Origin: Prillingera fragicola
Taxonomy: Eukaryota; Basidiomycota; Tremellomycetes; Trichosporonales; Trichosporonaceae
Length of the DNA: 64,000 nt
NCBI GenBank assembly: GCA_002335605.1
Contig: BEDY01000007.1
Span: 682,001 to 746,000, forward strand
Direction of reading: 5' to 3'
The notes below the pieces were generated by a model. It did no database searches. It saw nothing but the letters and a program-made list of their open reading frames with translations, and was not told the DNA's origin. The translations under genes and the position numbers were made by a program. Position 1 is the first letter of the stretch. Every line of letters starts with the position of its first letter. Shown here piece after piece: positions 5,058-63,930 of this stretch.

Positions 5058-8000
5058 CTACGCAATCCGACGGATAGTCCTCCTCTCCTTCTCGCCCACG
5101 ACCTTTGCCACACTCTCGTCCACCAACCCCTTGATGACCTCGGCAAACTCGGAGTGGTCCACGGGAATGCTACTCTGCTGCTCCAAGCTGCGAATGGCCG
5201 CCGTCCAGCGCAAGCCACTGCGACCAGCAGCGTCAAGCAGCTTGAGCACCTCGCGGCGCATGTCGGCGCGGACTCGGCGGGCGGCCGCGCCACCGCCAGA
5301 AGTGATGAGGTCGAGGTCAATCTGGCCCGTGAGAGGGTCGGTGGCGGATTCGCGGAGTGCGGCGCGGATGAGGCGCGACGCCTCTTCGACATCCTCCAGG
5401 TCGACTGTCTCAGAAAAGCGCATGCGGGCGTGCGCCTCGGAGAGACGGATCATGGACTCGAGCTGACGCGTGGTCGCGGTGATGCGGCGTTCTTGGCTGC
5501 GGGCGTCCTCGCCGACCTTGCGCATTGCGACGTAGGCCTGGACGAGGGCGTTCGAGGCCTCCTCGGTGAGGACTGGGTTGACCTTGGCACGCGAGTAGGT
5601 GATGTAGGCGGTGAGCATCTCGACGGGCTATGGCAGTCAGCATTGGTCACGAGTTTCGGTACAGTGAGACGTACGAGAATGTCAACACCGCCAGTGTCAG
5701 GACGGTCCTCGAGGTAGAGCCCGACAAGATGGGCTGCTAGCCTGCGGTCGTTCATCTCGTCGACCTTGTCGAGAACAAGGTAGAGCAAGTCGAAACGCGA
5801 AATAAGCGTAGGCGGCAGGTCAATGTTGGCCGGGATAGGCAGCTTCGGGTTGTACTTGGAGCCCACGGGATTGGCAGCGGCGAGGATCGAAGTACGCGCA
5901 TTGAGCGTGGTAATGATACCAGCCTTGGCAATCGACACGGTCTGTTGTTCCATCACTTCGTGCAGGACACTACGCGTCGCGTCCGACATTTTGTCAAACT
6001 CGTCGATGCAGCACACACCACCATCCGAGAGCACAAGCGCACCAGACTCGAGCACGAGCTGCTTCGAGTCTGGGTCACGGGTGACGTACGCCGTGAGACC
6101 GACAGCCGAAGATCCCTTACCCGATGTATAGACACCACGGGGCGCAATCTTGTGCACGTACTGCAGGATCTGTGACTTGGAAGTACCGGGGTCTCCAACC
6201 ATGAGAACGTTAATGTCACCACGGTAACGGGGACCGCCGCCGCCACCGCCGGTCGCAATGTTCTTGTTGGTGCCGCCAAAGAGCTGGAGAAGGATTCCCT
6301 TCTTGACGTCGTCCATCTCGTAAATAGAGGGCGCCATCGAGCGCGAGAGCATGTCATAGATGTCGGGATGACGCGAGAGCTCGAGGAGCTTTTGCTCCAT
6401 CTCGGCCGACGCGGTCAGGCTCAGGTCGGGCGTCTCCTCATCCATAACGTCGTCAGAGTTCATGCCAGTGCCCTGGAGAACCTCTCCCTCGTCGTCCTCG
6501 CCACCGACGCCGACACCGGGGAGCTTCTCGCCACTGCGGGTGCTGGGGTCGAAGCCCATACGCGCCGTGTTTGTGCGCTTGACGTGCACGACATCGACAT
6601 AGGTCTTGAACAGCGCCTTGATACTACGCTGACGAGGGTTGAGACGAACAGGGATCGAACGGAAGATACCCGAGACAATGACACGGTCACCGGGCTTTAC
6701 GAGATCAACGAGCTCGTCGTACACGCAGAGCGAGACGGTGTGCGGGGTCTGTCCATCGGGAACGGCGTCAGGAGTCTCCTGGAGGCGAATGACCTGCTTG
6801 TCGGTGAATGAGGAGCGGTTGTGGATAAGCGCCATGGAGCCGAGCGAGCGACAAACGTCCCGGGGACAGCGCTCGGGCTCGCTAATGCGTCCACGGTCAA
6901 TCTCAACCTGCACAGTGTGCTGGCACACAAGACAGCGGAAGAAGCCAGCGGTCATGTCCGGAATGACGGGCGTGGCGCGGATGACGAGGCCCTTGACCGA
7001 AATGAGCTTGTCGGTATCTCCTGGATTGAGGTCGCGCATGTTTATGCACTTTTCGCTGCCAAAGGGGCGAACTTTGAAGATTCGTGTCTCCATCTCTTCG
7101 AGATCCTGCTCGATGACACGAAGCTCAAGCTCAGCAATCGAGCCCTCGTCAAACTTGGTACGAGCAGCCTCAAGCTCATCCTCTGCCATTTCCGCCATGA
7201 CGTCGCGAAGGACCTGGTCCATGATAGGAACGACTTCCTGGGGAAAGTTGCAGAGCTGGTGGTACAACTTTTTCGTGGGAGGGTAGGCAAGCAGGTTGAG
7301 CGAGTCGAGGTTTAGGTTGGTCTGGCCACTAAGACGGAGCTGCGAAAGGTAACCCTCGTAGAGAAGAGCTTCGCGTTGCCTGGCAGGAAGGTTGTCGTAA
7401 AGAGCCATCGGAGGGGGAGCGACACCACCTTCGTCGACAATGATCTTAGCCTGGGCCGCGTTGAGGGCGCCACGGTACTTGGGCTTGAAACCGTGGAGGA
7501 ACTCGCGGAATAGGTTCATCGACTCCTGCAGCGAAATGGTCGTTCCCCAAATAAACTTGGACAGACCAGAGTCGTCCTCGGCCGCGTCCCCGAGGGGGTC
7601 TGTCGCAGCTGACATGGTCTGGGCCGATGAGTGAGCAGCGCGAGGGGTAGCTGGGTCGCTCCAATTGTTGAACGCCGGCGACGACGAGGCGGCTAGAGGG
7701 CGGACATTCTGAGCTGGTCGCCTTACGAGAGAGGGAGACGAAAGGGGGAACGACGAGTGGATGTCACCACGACGATGGCGACGCGGAGTGCTTCCACCCG
7801 ACGCTGGGAAGAACAATGGTGTCTCGCTGCGTAGCCTGGACGGTCCGGTAGCCGGTGGCATGCGACGGCCACCTTGGCTAGAGGAAGGAGCATGCCGGGG
7901 TGAGGATGTGGGGAACTGAAGAGGAGAAGAGGATGCCGGGACTGGAGAATATTAGCTAGGATTGAGATGGGATTTGTTGACGCACGATTTGAGCCGTTGT

Positions 8001-8112
8001 TGTTGCGAATAGCAGAGGCGCGAGGAGTTCCCGCTACGGAAGAGGTGGGAAAGTGGAGAGGCGATGATGAGCGAGGCCCTGCTCCTCCAGGTGTCCTGTT
8101 GGGTGTGGACAT
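5058..8112 (-). CDS. MCM4: MCM4, replicative helicase subunit
   Basis: MCM4 is one of six subunits of the MCM2-7 ring that licenses origins and unwinds DNA in the nucleus. Exons run 8112-7986, 7941-5675 and 5627-5058, giving 987 aa, the usual size for fungal Mcm4. Both introns (44 and 47 nt) have good donors (GTGCGT, GTACGT). The first 130 residues are a Ser/Pro-rich disordered tail, as expected of Mcm4. A zinc finger begins with CLVCQ near residue 380. Walker A GDPGTSKSQ lies near 620, Walker B CCIDEFDKM follows, and the arginine finger is LISRFD near 755. The start is the ATG at 8112, because the N-terminal MSTPNRTP segment resembles other Mcm4 starts and splices in frame. The gene is divergent from CDC27, with a 468-bp gap between the two starts. 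Confidence 0.96.
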
Positions 8113-8176
8113 TGCTGTTGAAATGTCGCAGAGAGTAGCAACAAGAGAAGAAGTACAAGATGAGGTTGAAAGGGAA

Positions 8177-8191
8177 ACGCGAGAAACGCGT
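8177..8191. promoter_or_regulatory. paired MCB-like boxes (MBF sites)
   Basis: ACGCGA (8177-8182) and ACGCGT (8186-8191) lie 65-80 bp upstream of the MCM4 start codon. ACGCGT is the MCB element bound by MBF in ascomycete yeasts, where MCM genes are classic G1/S targets. That the same factor acts here is inference. Confidence 0.5.
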
Positions 8192-8580
8192 CGCGTCCAT
8201 TCAGCACAAGATCAGGGTCCACCGTGTGATAACGGAAGTATAAATGACACGTCAGGATTACAAAACATTAGTATTGTTTTATAATCGCATTACAAACCTC
8301 CATTTCTAATCAAACACTAATAGCCCTTCTAAGTGGGTGCATGAATAAGAATACTCCCGCTGTGCTCCGCTGGGTGCATGTTGATGTCAACTACTGCTGT
8401 TTACCTCTGAATCATCTCTCGCCATTGTCGTCGCCGCCTCTTTCTCTCTCTGGACTGTATCATCCCACCACTACTACCACAACAGGCATACACAACACTC
8501 GCACAACGCATAATCATCAACGACACCCACTCCCATCTCCCGCAAACTCCTCCACCCCTACCCTCCACCTACCTCTGACC

Positions 8581-11094
8581 ATGGCTCCAAAGCCATCCGG
8601 TCCACACCTCCAACACCGCCTACGCACACTCTGCCTCACATCGCCACCAGACACTGCACTCTACTACGCATATCTCTATCGAGCATTCTTTCCCCCAACA
8701 GACGATCAGCATGACAGCCTGCACGTCTTTGCTCTGTGCCTGTTCGCGTCAGGACAAACATACTCGGCACTCCAAGTAGTCCGCGATCTGGCTGATGCAG
8801 ATGGAGATCCAGCAGACGACTATGCAGACTCCGAGAGGGGAATATTTGCTCGCGGACCGGGCTGCTACGGCTGTGCTGTCATTGTAGCCAAGTGCTGCAA
8901 CAAGCTGGAGAGGTACTCTGAAGGTCAGGCGGTGCTCGACCGAGCAATTCGCCGTTCCGTGCCAATGAGTAAGTCTTTTGCGATGGTGAACGATCACTGC
9001 TGATGGCTTTCAAGCTCTGCCCGCACCCAATCCTACCGACACTGCCGCGACCACGAGCCTCATGCTCGCCACCCTTTCGCACAAGGGCAAGGCACCAGCA
9101 CAAGCAGTCGAGCATTACACACGAGCACTTGCAGAAGACCCATGGTTGTGGGAGGCGTTTACAGGACTGTGTGATATCGGTGAGTCAACCATCATGGGCG
9201 GCATCGCCCACAGCTGACGGGTCGTAGGTGCTCCACCAAGCGGCGATTCCATCTTCCCAGACCCTCCGAGCATGCTTCGCTCATCATCACAACGCACCTC
9301 AAGAGGCGCAACATTGTCTCCAGGGCCAATGCCCCGCAGCTCTGCGTCCGAGGTTCCCAACTTTCGTCGCCAGTTGAGTCCTCTGGCATCTGCTGTGCCG
9401 CCCCAGGGATTGTTCACCCCAGATGTTGGTGGAGGTCTCCCACCGGCCGCACCTGCTCGGTTTGGCATGATGGGCAACCCAGCTGTATGGGAGTGAGTAT
9501 CATCACCCTGCTTTGCTAATCTATGCAGCACACCATCAACTGTCGCGGACACCACCTTCCCCATGATCACCGAGCACCAGAGTGGACCCAGCACCCGCCG
9601 TCCCCTCCCTAACCTCATCTCCGCCTTCCTCCCAGGCGGCGGCATGCTCTCCGCCGCTCTCCGCTCCACACCGAACCCCTTGACCGACTCGCCTCCCTCA
9701 AAACCACCGGCGATGAAGCGTCCCCGTGGCGCAAACATAATGCGTCGTCCGGCTGAGACGCCGGTTGGAGGCCCGCTGGCGACCGAGTCGCGCTTGAACG
9801 GCCGCGAGCACCGTATGCTGGACGCCAATGGCGACAAGGATGCGCCAGTGCGTCGGAGTACGCGCCTCAACTCGGCTGGACCCAAGAGTTCCAAGAGCGG
9901 CGCCTCCAAGACGTCGTCACGGACAGCGCGCGAGAAGCGCTCTACGCGCTCACATTCCGTTACATCGTCAACTTCTGGCCACACACCAGAAGTCACGTCA
10001 CCTGCAGCCGTCGAGGCCCAGGCCCAGGCGCATGTCGACGACTGGCTGCGGGACGTGGTGCGCCGTTGTGCGCGGGCCTACCGCCACCTGAGCCTGTATC
10101 AGTGCCGTGAGGCGCTCGCGGAGATTGACGGCCTGCCAGAGGAGATGGAGACATCGGCGTGGTCGTACGCGATTGTCGCTCGGGCGTTCTTTGAGCTCAA
10201 CAAGTACACCGAGGTGAGTAGCTTGGAATGTGCGGCTGTTTGCTGACGCTGTAGGCCAAGCGCGCATTCGAGGCGCTGCTCGCAGCCGAGCCCTACCGCC
10301 TGGAAGGCATGGACCAGTACTCGATTCTCCTGTGGCACCTTGGTGACAAGCCCGGCCTCTCGCACCTCTCGCAAGTCCTCGTCTCTGTCGATCGCGACGC
10401 ACCACAAGCCTGGGTAGCCGCCGGCAACTGCTTCAGTCTGCAACGCGAGCACGACGAAGCGATGCGCTGTTTCCGTCGCGCTACGCAGGTCTCCCCCGAC
10501 CTCTCCACCGCCTGGACATTGTGTGGCCACGAAGCTCTGGCCATGGAAGAGTACGAGCGCGCAATAGCCTTTTTCCGCACCGCGATCCGCTGCGACGCTA
10601 GGTGCTACACGGCGTGGTACGGCATGGGCTTTGTGTACCTGCGCCAAGGCAAGCTAAGGCACGCTGAACACCACCTTCGTCGCGCAGCCGAGATCAACCC
10701 CTCGAACCCGGCACTGCTCTGCTGTATTGGCACAGTTCTCGAAAAGTCTGACAACCTCCCGGGCGCTCTGGCAGTATACGAGGACGCATGTCAGTACGGC
10801 GGCACGTCAGGCGAACTCATCATGTGTCAGTACCAGCGGTCACGCACACTCCTCGCCCTCGGCCGCCTGGACGAGGCCATTGCGTCCCTGGAGCCGCTGG
10901 CGCGGGACGCGCCCGACGAAGCCAACGTGCACTTTCTGCTTGGAAAGTGTTACCTCCGCGCTGAACGGACTGCTTTCGGCATCATGGCCCTCACCATCGC
11001 GAGAGAGCTGCAGCCCAAGCTCGAGAGCGCTATTCGGGCCACGATGGTGGCAGGCGGGCTGGATGACTCGGGCGAGGAGCTGGATGAGCTCTAG
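8581..11094 (+). CDS. CDC27: Anaphase-promoting complex subunit Cdc27/Apc3
   Basis: Cdc27/APC3 is the TPR scaffold of the anaphase-promoting complex that helps recruit Cdc20/Cdh1 activators. Exons are 8581-8968, 9015-9179, 9228-9492, 9529-10213 and 10255-11094, giving 780 aa with all junctions in frame. The N-terminal 170 residues are helical APC3 repeats (ALYYAYLYRAFF, KLERYSEGQAVLDRAI). A disordered Ser/Pro/Arg linker follows. The C-terminal half holds about eight TPR units, recognisable from A-W-x-x-x-G-N and A-I-x-F-F-R-x-A-I patterns. Introns are 36-48 nt. The start at 8581 follows a pyrimidine-rich leader, and an in-frame ATG at 8341 would add 80 low-complexity residues that I regard as 5' UTR. 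Confidence 0.93.
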
Positions 11095-27198: not shown

Positions 27199-27293
27199 CG
27201 ACACCAGCAAGATTCGAACATGCGCTCCCGAAGGAAATTGATACACTATTAATCAATAGTAGTCAATCGCGATAACCACTCCGCCATAGTGCC
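27199..27293 (-). tRNA. tRNA-Ser, intron-containing, anticodon ACU by position
   Basis: The class II fold reads 27293 to 27199. The acceptor GGCACTA pairs with TGGTGTC, allowing two G-U pairs, and the discriminator is G, a tRNA-Ser identity element. The D stem is GCG/CGC. The anticodon stem ATTGA/TCAAT is perfect. A 14-nt intron (27256-27243) follows position 37, and there is a long variable arm TCC-TTCG-GGA. The T stem GCATG/CTTGC has one T-T mismatch. Positions 34-36 (27260-27258) read ACT, where GCT is usual for the AGY serine tRNA. A run of seven Ts follows as Pol III terminator. The mismatch and odd anticodon leave open a decaying copy. Confidence 0.75.
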
Positions 27294-55979: not shown

Positions 55980-56637
55980 ATGAGTGAGCAAGCCCAACAC
56001 CATATCCCACACCGACTAACAGCCTAGCGATCAAGGCCCAACTTGACAAGATCCGCCGCAAAGCGTCTCTGGGCGGTGGCTCCGGCATGACCGAGCCCGG
56101 ACCCACGCACACGGCGACCCAGACCCGCACCTCTGGCGACATGGCGATGCCCGAGCACACGATGGACAACAAGCCCATGGCCACTGAGCCAATGCCCGAC
56201 TCGCACCCCCCTCCGGCTGGCGGCAGTGAGTCCCACACCACCCCTGGAACCAAATAACCTCCCACAAACTGACACCCAAAGACCTGATGACCAAGATCCG
56301 CCGCCGCTCGTCTGCGTCTGCGGACCACGACGCGGCCGCCGTCCAGCAGCTGGCCGCGATGGGGTTTGACCGCAAGCGTGCGCAGCAGGTGCTGGCCGAC
56401 CACAACGGGAGCCAGACCGAGGCCCTCAACGTGCTCAAGCACGAGCGCCACTGCAAGTCCAAGGGCTGGCTCGACATTCGCGACTATGACCCCAACTGCG
56501 TCGTCTGCCAACGCCGTCCCGAGGGCGACGCCGAGTTTGGCCCTACCGGCGAGGGGGCTGCGGCCGAGGACCATGTGTCCCCGGACGTCATGCCCGGTGA
56601 GAGTGCTGCGGCTATGAAGGTCGGAGAGACCAGATAG
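55980..56637 (+). CDS. Array member A: UBA-like + HxxH/CxxC protein
   Basis: First of six paralogues in the last 8 kb. Exons are 55980-55983 (ATGA only), 56028-56225 and 56282-56637 (185 aa). Residues 1-80 are polar, with a duplicated basic motif (LDKIRRKASLG, MTKIRRRSSAS). Residues 87-120 fit a UBA-like three-helix fold (VQQLAAMGFDRKRAQQVLAD; EALNVL). They are followed by His121-x2-His124 and Cys140-x2-Cys143, a putative zinc site. The tail is acidic, without the glycine tract or hydrophobic segment of the others, so it may be the ancestral or soluble form. UBA assignment is by pattern, and ubiquitin binding is only inferred. Confidence 0.75.
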
Positions 56638-56916
56638 GATTCGGCCATGATTGCTGCCCTCGCTGGGTCGCCGCCGCTGTAGGAATGAGACCTTGAGACG
56701 TATCAGAAGTAGTAAGAACGAGTAATCTTTAATGCAGCCAGTGGTCTTGAACGTGCAGCGTTGTCTTGTGCTGCACTGCTCACTGCAAGACTGACGAGGC
56801 GACTCGGACTGACGAGCTCGCTGCGGGCGACGACTTGATCCATTCTGTCCACAAGGCATTACCTCGCTCACTCCTACACTTGCTGATCCCAGCTCCTGTG
56901 TGAACTGGGCCAGGCG

Positions 56917-57558
56917 CTAGCTACCACCACTTCCACCGCCGCCGCCATTTCCCCCTCCTCCACTACCACCGACACCACCTCCGTCACCACCGCCTGCGCC
57001 GCCTCCGTCACCACTACCACCCCCATGCCCACCACCTCCATGCCCACCCCCGCTCCCCTCGGCACCGTGCCCGCCACCAGCCCCAGCGCCAGCATCACCC
57101 ATAGCCGCACCGGCGATCCCTCCCGCGCCGTCCGCCCCACCCCCGCCATGCTCGACCCGCACCCCCCTCATGCCCACCAGCGTCTTACTAGGCGTAGCCG
57201 GCGTGACGAGCACAGCAGGAATCCTCCCCCCCGGCGCCATCTGTTCCGGCTCGGCAGTAAACTCTGCCTCCCCGGCATGCGTGACACGCACACACCGGGA
57301 GCACCCCACGCTCTCGGGGGGGATGCCGCGGATAGTGTGTAGATCGTGTACGGCGGCTGCGAGGTCGTTGTTGTGGGCTTTGAGTGCTTGTTTTGCCGAC
57401 TTGTTGTCAATGCCGCGGGAGATGAGAGAGGTCAAGGCGCGTGGGTCCGGACGGATGAAGAGTTTGCGCCAGAAGGGAAGAGGGGGTTTGGTTGCCTGTG
57501 GGGAGGGGGTGTGTTCTGCTTGTTAGCGAGGTTGAGGGGAGGGGGGTGCCGTACTCAT
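56917..57558 (-). CDS. Array member B: UBA-like + CxxC protein with glycine tail
   Basis: Exons run 57558-57555 (ATGA) and 57515-56917 (200 aa), with a 39-nt intron ending CTAACAAGCAG. It has the basic-aromatic motif FWRKLFIR, then a UBA-like segment at 29-60 (LTSLISRGIDNKSAKQALKA; AAVHDL). Cys73-x2-Cys76 is present, but the HxxH pair is reduced to one His (His61), so the proposed metal site is incomplete here. A short beta-like segment (PAVLVTPATPSKTLVGMR) follows. Residues from about 124 to the end are glycine-rich with Asn/Ser/Asp/Ala, encoded by CCACC-type repeats at 56931-57112. There is no hydrophobic segment. Confidence 0.75.
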
Positions 57559-58181
57559 TCTGCTTGGTGTTGCCAGCTGGGCTGACTGGTAGAGAGGGGC
57601 CGAGATGGAAGTGATGACCGTCGTGGCTGTGTTGCAAGGGTGTCAAAGAGGAGGACGAAGAGAGAGGAGATGGTCAGTTGCAGAGTGAGCTATAAGAAGT
57701 GTTGGAGTGTGACACGGATGGTGTGCCCGCGACAAGAACACAGCAGCTGTGCCATGACTCCGGCGCCGAGGAACAAGCACGGACAGCTCTTGCTACTTGC
57801 ACAATGGACAGCGATAACCTCAACTGATACTTACTGTGCACATATACACCTGATGCTCTGTGGTCTCCCAGTGCCAGGCTGACTTGAGATCTCAATCAAC
57901 TAAACCACGCCGCCGCAGAGTCCTGTACAAGCAAGCTGTGGACCTCCGACTCGCCACCTTGGAGGGACCGTCCCTTTGGGCTCTACTGATAAGTCACCAT
58001 TATGGCCTATCTCTGCATGCATTTAACGCTTCTGTATCTCCCAGGGGTCTGCATCCTTCATATAAAACTGTATGTACAATCCTTCTCACCGTGTCCAGCT
58101 TACAACTTTGCAGTGCGGTCAATGTTTACAGTGGCGACTCCTCCTTGCACCAACAGATCTGAGTTGTTAGCGTCCACCATG
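57559..58181. other. intergenic, no gene seen
   Basis: This stretch lies between array member B and the TupA-like gene. No coding region is supported. Confidence 0.45.
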
Positions 58182-59138
58182 TCATTCTGCTCGCTGACCT
58201 TTGTCGCACACATCAATCTGTTCTCTTGGAGTGAATAGCGGCACTCTCCTCTCCCAGTCCCGTCCATATTGCTTCACAATGTCCTGCGCCACAGCACCTC
58301 TCAACCACTCCACGAACCGCCACACGGCCCACCGTTTCTCATCAGAGCGCACCACAATAGCGCACGAGTTGAGTAGAACAGCATCTCCCTCAGCCACAAC
58401 CTCGAGCCCACGGATCAACCCCTGGTGGCGGGCCAGCAAAAAGCTCCCCCGGTCAGAGAGGAGGTAGGCACCGGCGCGCTCAGCACCCACCAACGCTTCC
58501 AATGGCGACACCGGCCGGCGCTCATACCACCCCTTGCTCTGCGGCCGCACCCCAGCACAGCTCCAGAGGTACAGCTCCTTGTGCATGGTCGCAGACCCGT
58601 CGCCGCGGGTATGGAAATACACCCCCTGCGCGGCCAGCAGCGCCATGGCGGGCACTATATCCATCCCCCGCACGCCAGCCGGATCCCCGCGCGGGCCAGC
58701 AAGCACAAAGTGGTCGTGGCACAGGATGTCGACTGTCCGTGACCAGCCTTCTTGCTGCGCGACGAGTTCCTGGTCCCGCTCGTAGGTGAGGGCCACGTCG
58801 ACCAGGCCGGCCTGCAGCGCGATCTGGGTGTACCGCGAGTGATTGCAGATCCACTCTATGCGCAAGTCCGGGGTGGTGGCGAGGTAGGTCTCGGCGAGGA
58901 CACGGAGCAGGCCTGTGGGTCCGAGTCCGCCGTTGCCTATGCGCAACACTGTGCGCGCGGTGGGTGAGCCATAGACCTCGCGGGGTGCCGCGGAGATTTC
59001 GTGCGGCGCTCCGGGGGTGTGGTAGAGGTCTGGCTTGAGGACCTCGGAGGTTGTTGAGTGATACGTCCTGCTGGCTTGGGCGATGAAGCAGACGCGGTAA
59101 GGTGGTCCAGCGTGGGTTGGGTCTTGGTGGCGAGTCAT
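58182..59138 (-). CDS. TupA-like periplasmic-binding-fold protein (tungstate/molybdate type)
   Basis: A single-exon gene of 318 aa. It matches the plan of bacterial TupA/WtpA-type anion-binding proteins. An N-terminal strand-helix TVLRIGNGGLGPTGLLRVL is followed by QAGLVDVALTYERDQELVA and the DHFVLAGPRGDPAGVRG block. RGDGSATMHKELYLW (phosphate-like oxyanion loop), AYLLSDRGSFLL and LLNSCAIVV come next, and the C-terminal part includes FVEWLRGAVAQDIV. In bacteria the protein delivers tungstate or molybdate to an ABC importer. Here the first 65 residues are polar and carry no signal peptide, so it is probably cytosolic. The lack of introns in an intron-rich genome and the bacterial-type fold suggest acquisition by transfer, as inference. 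Ligand and role are unknown. It lies inside the UBA-like array. Confidence 0.8.
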   Translation of the reverse strand: MTRHQDPTHAGPPYRVCFIAQASRTYHSTTSEVLKPDLYHTPGAPHEISAAPREVYGSPTARTVLRIGNGGLGPTGLLRVLAETYLATTPDLRIEWICNHSRYTQIALQAGLVDVALTYERDQELVAQQEGWSRTVDILCHDHFVLAGPRGDPAGVRGMDIVPAMALLAAQGVYFHTRGDGSATMHKELYLWSCAGVRPQSKGWYERRPVSPLEALVGAERAGAYLLSDRGSFLLARHQGLIRGLEVVAEGDAVLLNSCAIVVRSDEKRWAVWRFVEWLRGAVAQDIVKQYGRDWERRVPLFTPREQIDVCDKGQRAE

Positions 59139-59766
59139 GGTCGACCTTGGGGGTGTGACGAGGGTTCCCGCATGCTAGCTTGTGCTTATAAAACGCCTAG
59201 CTTGCGGCGACTTACTTTTAACAACATCAGCTGAACAATAACCCGTCAGCTGAACGGTGGTCCACAGGAACGACTCCGGCCAGTGACTCCGGTGGCTCCG
59301 GTGGGCAGGTCATGCACGCATACCTCGGTGTCAGTGGGCAGGCCGGGCCGGTGGGCCGAGTGGCCGAGATAGCAGCACGAGTGGTGCCTACGTTGTTGAC
59401 CTGCTGTGTGCGAGAGGGACATATTGGCAGCCAAGTCGACATGCTAGCCTCATTCACTGGCGCGTTGTCGCCGCATGTGCGCTGACCCATGGCGCATGCT
59501 TGAGAGAACGCGTGCCCAGCGTTGTCTCATGAGATGAGGAGGAGTTGCTGGAGTGCCTACGGCAAGCGGCCCAAGAGGGTAGGATGTTCGGCATGAGCGA
59601 GAGAACTGGAGGGTTGGGCCCAGTGAGTTGCGAAAGCTGCTCCAGTTCCTTGTTCTCATGTCCCGCTGCTGCTTGTGTGTCTGTGCATGTTGGCCGCTGG
59701 ACAAGGTGCATTGGTCCAGTGTTCTAATCACACGATGGCCTTGCATCGATGTGTCCGCGCGGCCAT
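59139..59766. other. intergenic, no gene seen
   Basis: A TTATAA element lies near 59187-59192, about 50 bp upstream of the TupA-like start on the minus strand, a plausible TATA. The remainder shows no gene. Confidence 0.45.
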
Positions 59767-60362
59767 CTAGCAGCCACCGCCATCACCACCCCCGCCACCC
59801 CCATCACCACCACCGCCACCGCCGTCCCCGCCACCCCAGCCCCCGCCATCACCACTTCCCCCGCCATCACCACTTCCGCCCCCTCCCCCACCTTCACTAC
59901 TCCTCCCCATCCTCCCCTGCCACCCACAATCCTCCTGCTCCCACCCCAACCACACGCCAACAGAAACAATCCCCGCCCCAACCCCAATCCCACCCCCACC
60001 GAGCACCACCGGCGCAGGCGTCCCCAGCGCGGCCGCACGCACGCGGATAGCTTCCTCCAACTGTCCCGAACGGCGCGCACATACCGCACAGCCTGCTACG
60101 TGGGCGTGCCCGGAGCCGCGGTGCCGGTCGTGGTGCAGGAGGTTGGCTGCTTCGGTCAGGTCGCCGTTTGTGAAGCGGAGTGCGCGGCGGGAGAGGCCGA
60201 GCGGGTAGCCTTGGGAGATTAGGACTTTGACGGCGCGGAGAGGTTTTGGGCGTGCAGGTGTGGTGGGGTTGAAGAAGAAGAGGCGTTGGAGGAGGGAGCG
60301 TCGCTGGACAGGGGGTTCGTCTGTGACTGGGGTTAGAGGCGTCGAGGAGGAGATGTACTCAT
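59767..60362 (-). CDS. Array member C: UBA-like + HxxH/CxxC, hydrophobic segment, glycine tail
   Basis: Exons run 60362-60359 (ATGA) and 60326-59767 (187 aa). The intron is only 32 nt, with CTCTAAC before CCCCAG. Residues 9-19 carry the family motif RRSLLQRLF. The UBA-like part spans 32-65 (VKVLISQGYPLGLSRRALRF; EAANLL). His67-x2-His70 and Cys81-x2-Cys84 form the putative zinc site. Residues 107-129 are hydrophobic with a glycine zipper (GGGGIGVGAGIVSVGVWLG), followed by W-x3-ED-x-GWQG, conserved in members D and E. The last 40 residues are Gly with Asp/Ser, ending in Cys. A membrane location is inferred. Confidence 0.78.
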
Positions 60363-60517
60363 TGTGCTGTTGTTGTGGCTGCACGTGAAGATACGGAACG
60401 GAGACTGTTCAGAGTCAGAGAGATGTCTGAGTAGGAATGAGTGGTCAGTGCTGAGAAGAGTGAGCAAGTTGGCATTTGTGCTGCATGTCGAGGCCCGAGC
60501 AGCGGACAGTGTTGGCT

Positions 60518-60536
60518 GTGCGAGCCATCGGCCGCC
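60518..60536. promoter_or_regulatory. shared upstream element, copy 1
   Basis: GTGCGAGCCATCGGCCGCC lies about 156 bp upstream of the start of member C and differs by one base from a copy upstream of member D. It contains the palindromic CGGCCG core. Its role is unknown. Confidence 0.5.
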
Positions 60537-60599
60537 ACTGGCCGCTGATGAACAACACTGCATAGCTCAGACACCTTCTTGCAGCCCCCGGCAAGCAGC

Positions 60600-61180
60600 C
60601 TAGCAACCTCCGTCGCCACCGCCACCGCCTCCACCGCCATCACCACCCCCACATCCGCCATCCCCACCACCTCCCCAGCTCCCACCATCGCCGCTCCCCA
60701 TCCCCCCACCACTTCCACCACCACTCCGCCCCCCACTCCCCCTCCACCCCTGCCACCCACTATCCTCCATCTCCCAGTTCAAATACGCCGCCGCAGACAT
60801 AACACCAGCCCCAACACCCACAGCGCCGCTCCCAAGCACAACAGCCTGCGGTGTCCCCAGCATCTTCGCGCGGGTATTGATAGCCGCCTCGAGCTGCCCG
60901 GCCCGCCGCTCACACACCCCACACCCGGCCAGGTAGTTTTGGCGCCACCCACGCCGGTGCCGGTCGTGCGCTAGCAGGAGGAGCGCTTCGTTTGTGTCCC
61001 CCAGGGCCTGGGTTAGGGCGCGTTTGGCGAGTCCGCGGGGATAGCCTTGGGCTAGGAGGGGGTCGAGGTTTGGATCAAAGTTTGGGGCGAAGACGCGTTT
61101 GAAGAGGCTTCGCCGGTGGGGGTTGGGTTTGGCTGTGTTCGCTGGGTGTTAGTGTGCGTATGGTTGGATGGCTTACTCAT
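60600..61180 (-). CDS. Array member D: UBA-like + HxxH/CxxC, hydrophobic segment, glycine tail
   Basis: Exons run 61180-61177 (ATGA) and 61141-60600 (181 aa), with a 35-nt intron. It is the closest relative of member C. It has HRRSLFKRVF, the UBA-like LDPLLAQGYPRGLAKRAL, His60-x2-His63 and Cys75-x2-Cys78. AGQLEAAINTRAKMLGTPQ and a hydrophobic stretch AVVLGSGAVGVGAGVMSAAA follow, then W-x3-ED-x-GWQG. A glycine tail with Ser/Asp ends in Cys. The tail DNA (60603-60735 as seen on the plus strand) is CCACC/CCATC repeats. Conservation with member C is strongest from the CxxC to the GWQG motif, suggesting that this is the functional core. Confidence 0.78.
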
Positions 61181-61350
61181 GGTGGACTAATGCTCGCTTC
61201 AGTCGAGAGTGGGGAGGAGTGTGTCGAGCTCCAGTAAATGTTTAAATAGTGAAAGGAGTGATTATGAATACTGACTAGAGAGAACGAACGTGTCTCCGGA
61301 ACAGAGCAGTGTACAGCGGGGTCCGAGCAGTGCGTGTCGGTCAATTGGCG

Positions 61351-61369
61351 GTGCAAGCCATCGGCCGCC
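61351..61369. promoter_or_regulatory. shared upstream element, copy 2
   Basis: GTGCAAGCCATCGGCCGCC lies about 171 bp upstream of the start of member D and is 18/19 identical to the copy upstream of member C. A CCGAGCAG block also precedes both copies by roughly 20 bp. Confidence 0.5.
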
Positions 61370-61678
61370 GTTTCCTGCAGATGTCATAGCCCCGGTCCGA
61401 GACACATTTCCATTCCATCCACGCCATGCACCACGGTTATGTACTCATATCCTGCCGCTGCTGTGCGTTGTGGTCATGATCCGGGATGCAGTTAATCCTC
61501 AAAGATAAGAGAATGACCGCTGCCCGGTTGTCTTTGTTTGGTCCGAGATGCCGTGCCGAGGTAGCCGAGCATCCAGCCGCGACTGACTTCTCCGTCGGGC
61601 CGTGTTCTCGACGAGCAGCAAACGTGCGCACTTGTTCATACATGTCCACCAAGCTCCGAGCAGCCACTAACATTATCC

Positions 61679-62253
61679 TCATTCACCGCCGCCCCCGCCG
61701 CCATCGCCACCCCCACCGCCATCGCCACACCCACCCCCATCACCACCACCATACCCGCTCCCACCACCCCCGTCCCCGCCCGAGCTCTTATTCCACACAC
61801 TCTCCTGCCACCCCCAGTCCTCATTCGTCCAAATCAAGTAGTCTGGCGCCCACATCAACCCAGCCTCCAGACTAGCCACCAGCAGCGCAGCAGGACCGAT
61901 CGCCATGTCCCGCGACCCAGCAGGGAAGCCCGGGATGCCGCCGCCGAAAAACGGCTGCACCCGCACGCGCCTGTTGCGAAGGTTGTCGATCGTGGCCGCG
62001 CGATACTGGCAGATTGGGCAGGTGGCGTCAAAGGGGACTTTTTGGAAGCGGCGGTGGTCGTCGTGGTATAGTAGCTGGTGGGCGTAGGTTGTGTTGCCGT
62101 TGGCGTGCTTGAGGGCCCGCTTTGCGAGGGGGCGGGGGAAGCCGGCTGCGAGGAGCGGGGCTAGGGCTGGGTCGGGGGTGAAGAGGCGGTCAAAGAGGGT
62201 GCGTCTGGGGTGGGCTGGGGGTTAGGTTGGAGTGAAGATGAGTGCCTACCCAT
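61679..62253 (-). CDS. Array member E: UBA-like + HxxH/CxxC, hydrophobic segment, glycine tail
   Basis: Exons run 62253-62250 (ATGG) and 62214-61679 (179 aa), with a 35-nt intron. The order is the same as in members C and D: PRRTLFDRLF, UBA-like LAPLLAAGFPRPLAKRAL, His52-x2-His55, Cys67-x2-Cys70, then a basic stretch. A hydrophobic segment GPAALLVASLEAGLMW lies near 108-123. TNEDWGWQESVW is its form of the ED-x-GWQ motif. The glycine tail, interrupted by Asp, Tyr and Cys, ends GGE. The sequence between CxxC and the hydrophobic segment is diverged, so this is an older copy than C and D. Confidence 0.78.
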
Positions 62254-63300
62254 TGAACTGGGGTGCTCGTTGCAACGATGGCTGTGATGAGTTGGGAGTG
62301 AGTGGTGTAAGGAGAATGACTGCAGTGAAATGTTGACAGCAGAGGCGTGAGTGTGAGACCAATGTGACCAGGCAAAGGTTTTTGTTTGTTGTTGACAGAC
62401 ACGGTGGTGACGCACGGAGCCTGCCAGGTGCTGTGCAAGCCTCCAGTCAGCATAGCCTCGAGATGCCTTCCATTCCTTCAACCGTCAGCCGAGGTACGGC
62501 AAGCTGTTGCCGGCTGCTTGCAAGCTAGCGGTGAAGCCAGAGATAAGAAGTGATGGCTGCACAGTCTTGGCACGGTAAGTTGATCCGAGCCGACTGAAGC
62601 GACACAGCCTGGTTACTCGGAAGTCGATGATGGTCAAGCACACTAGCTAGTCTCGCCCGCGGTCAGTATTTCCGCGTCAGTAATGGTGAGCGAGTGATGC
62701 TTGCCGCGATTAGGGACTGCCAACCGAGGCGAGAAGAGACACGGAAAGGGCCACGCGATCCATCGAGACGACGACACCAGGATGCTCATCTTTCGAGGGG
62801 AACTTGGAAACAACTTGCCTCCGAGTGTGAGATATGCTTTTGATCCCTCGAGTAGTAGTCCTGCGTGTCTTGGGGTTGTGAATACTGTGTCCCCTTGGCA
62901 CGAATGTCCTCAAAACGCTGTGATGTGAGAGAGAGTGCAGAGGGTAGAGCATGGATGGCAACATCAGGGGAGCAAGAGTGTTCCACAGCAAGTGGTGCCT
63001 GGTTTCATCCTGTTGATCATCCCACATCCATCCCATCACTCGTCTCGCCACTGCACATTGTCTCTCCATACCCTCATTCTTGCATCTACACCTGCTCGAC
63101 AGTCTCTATTCGGTATACTCTATGGGCCTGGAGGCCCTTGTCCAAGTCATCCCCCCTCCAGCTCTCGTGCCGTCCCCATACTCAACACAGGCCTCGCACG
63201 TACCTTGTCACCTGCGGCGCAGCCCCCTTTCAGCTTAGACTTTGCAACGGCACACCCTTCAACACTCTGCTCTCTTCCACTCACTCATCATCATCTCAAC
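62254..63300. other. divergent promoter region of members E and F
   Basis: About 1 kb separates the divergent members E and F. GTGCAAGCC at 62433-62441, 180 bp from the start of E, is a partial match to the 19-bp element of members C and D. No gene was recognised. Confidence 0.4.
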
Positions 63301-63930
63301 ATGCATAGAACGCGTACGCTTTCCTCCACAAACAAACAGCTAACGCCAGAATCCGCACACACCGCCTCCGAACCACCAAGCTGGTGGCGTAGCCTAGTCG
63401 GCCGCGAACCCGTAAACGACTCTCACTTCTCGCGCCTCTGCGCCATGGGCTACCCAGCCTCGCGCGTGAAAAAGATTCTAAGGCAGCAAAACAATCACTT
63501 GCAGCGCACCCGCGCCATGCTCGAGCACGAGGTTCACGAGGAACGCGGCGAGAGCTGGCACGAGCGCTGCGAGGTGTGCGTCATGCGGCGGCAGCGGAGG
63601 GACGAGATGCTGTCCGAGAACAGGCAGCGGGACGAGCGTAACGGCTCAGCGACGCAGTATGGCACCATGGGCGATGCCTTGCTCGGTGCCGGGATGTACA
63701 ATACCGACAAGCCCGGGAGCGTCGCCATGTCCCCGCCGGTGTACACGGGTGGGAGTGCGCCGAGTGCCAATATCGGTGCGTACCAGGGTGCGTATACTTC
63801 GGCGTACTCTGGACCATACGTTGGTGCGTACGGTGGCGCCTATGTTGGCGGCTATGGAAGTCAGGCTGGTGTTACCACTGGGACGGGTGGGCATGGGGCC
63901 AGCTCGGCTGGGCTTAATTCCAATCACTAG
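63301..63930 (+). CDS. Array member F: UBA-like + HxxH/CxxC protein with Tyr/Gly/Ala tail
   Basis: Exons are 63301-63313 and 63350-63930 (197 aa). The intron is in the same phase as in the other members, with GCTAACGCCAG at its end. The order is SWWRSLVGR, UBA-like FSRLCAMGYPASRVKKIL, His64-x2-His67, Cys78-x2-Cys81, then a basic helix (RRQRRDEMLSENRQR). Unlike C to E it has no strong hydrophobic segment. Its tail is built from GAY/SAY/GPY repeats (about 160-180) in place of pure glycine, which hints that an aromatic/glycine low-complexity tail can substitute. It is the last gene before the window end, and the array may continue beyond. Confidence 0.75.
   Translation: MHRTRTLSSTNKQLTPESAHTASEPPSWWRSLVGREPVNDSHFSRLCAMGYPASRVKKILRQQNNHLQRTRAMLEHEVHEERGESWHERCEVCVMRRQRRDEMLSENRQRDERNGSATQYGTMGDALLGAGMYNTDKPGSVAMSPPVYTGGSAPSANIGAYQGAYTSAYSGPYVGAYGGAYVGGYGSQAGVTTGTGGHGASSAGLNSNH

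Follow-up and report, generated by a model that had tools for sequence, protein, structure and literature searches.

UBA domains are among the commonest readers of ubiquitin, and those that bind it carry an M-G-[FY] loop as their signature. Structural zinc sites typically appear as paired H-x2-H and C-x2-C motifs, and we know of no UBA domain with a metal site built onto its third helix. Here we describe an array of six genes (A to F) at positions 55980–63930 of a 64,000-nucleotide stretch of the Prillingera fragicola genome (contig BEDY01000007.1, positions 682,001–746,000; "the window"), together with a seventh gene, G, at a separate locus. Their products share a UBA-like core that runs into H-x2-H and C-x2-C. 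We propose that A to G are one diverged family of ubiquitin-type adaptors, small and probably intracellular, whose UBA-like domain is clamped by a metal; we consider the case for and against this proposal evenly balanced. If it is true, the family offers a small, testable example of a reader domain that was stiffened and then diversified in one fungal lineage: what began as an A/G-like form became tandem copies with tails, which possibly no longer bind ubiquitin.

UBA-like fold of the family cores

All six array genes were recovered as intact open gene models where the first-pass annotation had placed them, and the single plan that it ascribed to them is borne out by their cores. In core-against-core alignments of A to F and G, 20 of the 21 pairs scored above 500 of 500 shuffles and the remaining pair, B–G, above 499 of 500, so that the seven cores are homologous despite pairwise identities of 25–55%. 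The organism's own assembly (20.2 Mb, 17 contigs) was searched in six frames and the best candidates were scored; for B the query was the second-exon product, and for each of the other six members the core. G was the sole further member that turned up (contig C11, 566079–566273, reverse strand); it matches A at 47% identity across 64 residues, and its model comprises 238 amino acids. In a tree of the seven cores none of the four inner branches is strongly supported; A groups with G (85/96), and B and F sit on long branches. Two outcomes of the genome search count against a single family: B as query brought up no other member, and G was missed when F was the query.

Two further candidates were set aside. 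A match to F on contig C1 (E 0.2), which is situated opposite an open reading frame resembling, by eye, an alpha/beta-hydrolase, was dropped. The hit on contig C2, 270965–271156 (E 0.01 to B and 0.035 to G), encodes a distinct UBA protein that lacks the His/Cys motif. It scores 22.8 against a cut-off of 22.4 for Pfam UBA, its DPR-...-NND-LA segment resembles B, and it is a possible outgroup.

The fold of the cores is shown by sequence profile and structural models alike to be UBA-like. A seven-member profile retrieved 48 PDB sequences at E≤1. By reading of their names, 45 of them bear a UBA domain, as does everything at E≤0.001, eight sequences in all, among them USP13, Mud1 and Ddi1. Within Pfam, UBA_7 and UBA were each matched by five of the seven members, more than any other family (maximum E 1). 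A match of all six array proteins to a known annotated family was not obtained, as none of the seven members passes the curated cut-offs (best scores 23.4 versus 27 bits for UBA_7, PF22562, and 19.8 versus 22.4 for UBA, PF00627). AlphaFold2 modelled D with a mean predicted local distance difference test (pLDDT) score of 83 over the residues before the tail, with ten-residue blocks of 85–94 over residues 21–70, and A with a mean of 67 and blocks of 86–91 over residues 21–60. Both predictions yielded the UBA-like fold that had been suggested from the sequence, a compact three-helix bundle as in the UBA-like superfamily. The top Foldseek rows for both models are UBA domains at modest scores, the Mud1 UBA aligning over 30–35 columns with a root-mean-square deviation of 0.4–0.6.

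The M-G-[FY] loop is present in two of the seven members, A and F, and an aromatic third residue in six of the seven; the loop of B reads RGI. For A and F, which retain the classical loop, binding of ubiquitin or a ubiquitin-like protein by the UBA face is plausible and, in our reading, probable. For B, with its RGI loop, it is doubtful: B has probably lost ubiquitin binding, as perhaps have others. A somewhat unlikely alternative is that the cores are a UBA-fold scaffold that never contacts ubiquitin, packing instead on the His/Cys extension and serving protein–protein or self-association in the manner of the UBA-like domains of NAC and EF-Ts type. The retained MGF and MGY loops of A and F argue against such a scaffold, as does the presence of the ubiquitin-pathway proteins USP13, Mud1 and Ddi1 among the best PDB profile matches.

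The His/Cys motif and its putative metal site

The H-x2-H motif followed 10–15 residues on by C-x2-C, which the first-pass annotation had put forward as a family trait, occurs in all six array genes. Written as H..H.{9,16}C..C, a pattern composed after the genes had been seen, it has eight matches among the 617 open reading frames of at least 60 amino acids in the window (74,512 residues), one in each array gene and two in reverse-strand frames inside B and F; outside the array it is absent from this set. Nor does it follow any of nine UBA stretches examined elsewhere in the genome, several of which end early at a stop codon or an exon end. The seven-member MAFFT alignment has 82 fully filled columns. 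Eight of these do not vary, and the two histidines and the two cysteines account for half of the eight. Their invariance has a binomial P of 0.0007 against a His plus Cys background of 5.8%, a post hoc value that accepts a MAFFT gap in B. The motif is supported as a hallmark of the family.

B is where this gap matters. It had been described as lacking the second histidine; it has an H-D-L-H whose spacing to C-x2-C is normal for the family, and in front of this H-D-L-H MAFFT places a gap of four residues, that is, one helical turn. Whether the second histidine counts as present is accordingly a matter of alignment: in the ungapped reading the His pair of B would sit one turn off and the description would stand, whereas with the gap the four conserved Cys/His ligands are found in all seven members.

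The model of D places His 59 and His 62 in the later part of a helix spanning residues 50–65, and Cys 74 and Cys 77 at the start of the helix 75–82 (block pLDDT 93); the Cys region of A is modelled less surely than that of D. The third UBA helix of the family is longer and closes with H-x2-H, and C-x2-C opens the next helix. Zinc binding by this set is likely, with the two histidines and two cysteines most likely holding one zinc ion that would clamp the ensuing segment to the UBA bundle. The same residues, kept in seven of seven members under MAFFT, would also suit a set that is redox-active or structural without metal, or that holds another metal in a metal-stress role, as the data here do not tell zinc from other metals. 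We judge this improbable, the paired H-x2-H and C-x2-C being the usual form of a structural zinc site. The promoters add little to the question: the 600 bases before each of the seven start codons (those of C run into gene D) contain no Zap1-like site, which would speak against a metal-stress role had any been expected by chance. Since none was, and since copper-regulator sites were not scanned, the scan says little on a metal role. The same scan gave nothing for the stress link that had been suggested, with 11 stress response elements against 10.5 expected, no heat shock elements against 1.1 expected, and one 8-mer common to four or more genes against 0–2 in 30 shuffles, hence no shared stress signature.

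Flanking segments, gene models and array growth

The segments around the core are more variable. Of the basic-aromatic motif described for all six genes, C, D and E alone carry the literal form RR-[ST]-L-x2-R-[LV]-F; W-R-x-L variants occur in B and F, and A has RRRSSAS instead. G is enriched in RRx[ST], with six separate sites where 2000 shuffles averaged 0.26 and never exceeded three; the two matches in A overlap within one RRRSS stretch and stay inside the shuffle range. Basic serine stretches before the domain, those of RRxS type in G above all and RRRSS in A, would fit sites of basophilic kinases of the protein kinase A type, and their phosphorylation could switch G, and perhaps A, on or off. 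At the other end of the proteins, the tails correspond to their first description: glycine makes up 41, 36, 34 and 27 of the last 60 residues of B, C, D and E, respectively, and the tail of F is rich in Tyr, Gly and Ala. Such tails might give B to F multivalent assembly or localisation.

C, D and E further share the ED-x-GWQ motif, as had been noted, and a hydrophobic stretch with 19-residue Kyte–Doolittle peaks of 1.88, 1.69 and 1.53, respectively, which are borderline values. Together with the glycine-rich tails, these peaks would suit membrane- or wall-associated glycine-rich proteins in which the stretch of C, D and E inserts, the tail is displayed and the UBA part stays cytosolic. This is nevertheless a quite improbable account of the family: A, B, F and G have no such stretch (peaks 0.32–0.77), and the model of D folds it into short helices and a beta-hairpin (block pLDDT 82–91). 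With this stretch modelled at good confidence, the D model lends no support to the membrane insertion raised in the first-pass annotation.

The gene products are small. Gene A (55980–56637, forward strand; exons 55980–55983, 56028–56225 and 56282–56637; 185 amino acids) encodes one RRRSS and one RRKAS stretch, the UBA-like domain, H-x2-H and C-x2-C, and no glycine tail; the pattern match covering its H-x2-H/C-x2-C segment lies at 56440–56508 on the forward strand. On the reverse strand follow B (56917–57558; exons 57558–57555 and 57515–56917; 200 amino acids), with UBA-like helices, H-x2-H one turn early, C-x2-C and a glycine tail, and C (59767–60362; exons 60362–60359 and 60326–59767; 187 amino acids), in which the UBA-like/His-Cys core is joined to the hydrophobic Gly-rich stretch, EDCGWQ and a glycine tail. 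D (60600–61180, reverse; exons 61180–61177 and 61141–60600; 181 amino acids) is a tandem duplicate of C, and E (61679–62253, reverse; exons 62253–62250 and 62214–61679; 179 amino acids) combines the UBA-like domain and HxxH/CxxC with EDWGWQ and a glycine tail. F (63301–63930, forward), with UBA-like domain, HxxH/CxxC and Tyr/Gly/Ala tail, comprises 209 amino acids unspliced or 197 without an in-frame 36-nt candidate intron at 63314–63349.

A shared intron phase had been reported for the array, and in A to E, as in G, a phase-1 intron is indeed predicted after the ATG plus one base, leaving a four-base first coding exon; its predicted length is 44 nt in A, 39 in B, 32 in C, 35 in D, 35 in E and 97 in G. 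A has a second predicted intron at 56226–56281. For F the claim holds less well: its 36-nt intron, also of phase 1, is only a candidate, after 13 nt, and F also stays open if read through. G, which has the same start-codon intron, retains an A-like architecture at its own locus. Its neighbours (1017–2186 and 5796–8699 of locus L030) look, by eye, like a 2-oxoglutarate-dependent oxygenase and a biotin-dependent carboxylase.

The array expanded by local duplication, of which C–D is the clearest case: a coding block of 126 nt (71% identical) and an upstream block of 39 nt (79%) recur at the same offset of 833 bp. The upstream block, at 60512–60550 for C and 61345–61383 for D, is either left over from this duplication or a promoter element that has been kept. 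NOB1 is the gene upstream of A, a CDC5/CEF1 homologue is the next large gene past the window end, and no family member was seen among the open reading frames of the 9.9 kb beyond that end. Between B and C, a gene at 58182–59174 (reverse strand) encodes a PBP_like_2 solute-binding domain above the cut-off (E 1.2e-7), a type familiar above all among the substrate-binding proteins of bacteria. Elsewhere in the window, the only Rfam match at gathering score is a tRNA gene at 27199–27293 (reverse strand), which at 95 nt probably has an intron or a long variable arm.

Comparison with known families and systems

The first-pass annotation regarded the array as a tandem, diverged and apparently undescribed family, and the family scans agree with it. 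Pfam and NCBIfam gave no family above cut-off for the six window proteins, nor did Pfam, the one database run for G. Searched whole against a protein database, the second-exon product of D gave no match at E≤0.001 among 7983 scored candidates, which were probably filled by glycine-rich words; its residues 1–125 gave 68 candidates and none at E≤1. The seven-member profile, scored against the best 7998 candidates by shared words, returned one weak match, a fern UBA protein (E 0.72). No full-length relative was thus found in these limited searches, which leave the absence of relatives unproven, above all for A and G, which had no query of their own. To judge from titles and the openings of abstracts, none of the papers listed deals with such a family.

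At its most ambitious, the proposal of a metal-clamped adaptor family would make this core a ubiquitin-binding module of a new sort: a zinc ion between the helix-3 H-x2-H and the trailing C-x2-C would rigidify the UBA face of lineage-restricted, phospho-switched, condensing adaptors that diversified beside NOB1; in this full form we regard it as tentative and unlikely. Its nearest described relatives are UBA/TS-N (PF00627) and UBA_7 (PF22562), with which the cores share the three-helix fold, the L-x3-G-[FYI] loop and the Leu/Ala pattern of helices 2 and 3, but from which they differ in scoring below the cut-off and in a third helix extended into H-x2-H and then C-x2-C. The SOUBA of UBAP1 (4ae4), built of overlapping UBAs, differs from the cores of A to G, and to our knowledge it has no H-x2-H/C-x2-C. 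The ubiquitin-binding, 14-3-3-regulated kinase TNK1 (PMC8429728) is reported to combine ubiquitin binding with a phospho-regulated serine, as proposed here for A and G; unlike TNK1, A to G have no kinase domain that we could find. No zinc family appears for the family proteins in the Pfam and NCBIfam results. In having two cysteines and two histidines at short spacing the motif nevertheless resembles zinc knuckles and C2H2-type fingers, from which it is set apart by its order, H-x2-H preceding C-x2-C, and by having its histidines in the final helix of the UBA-like core.
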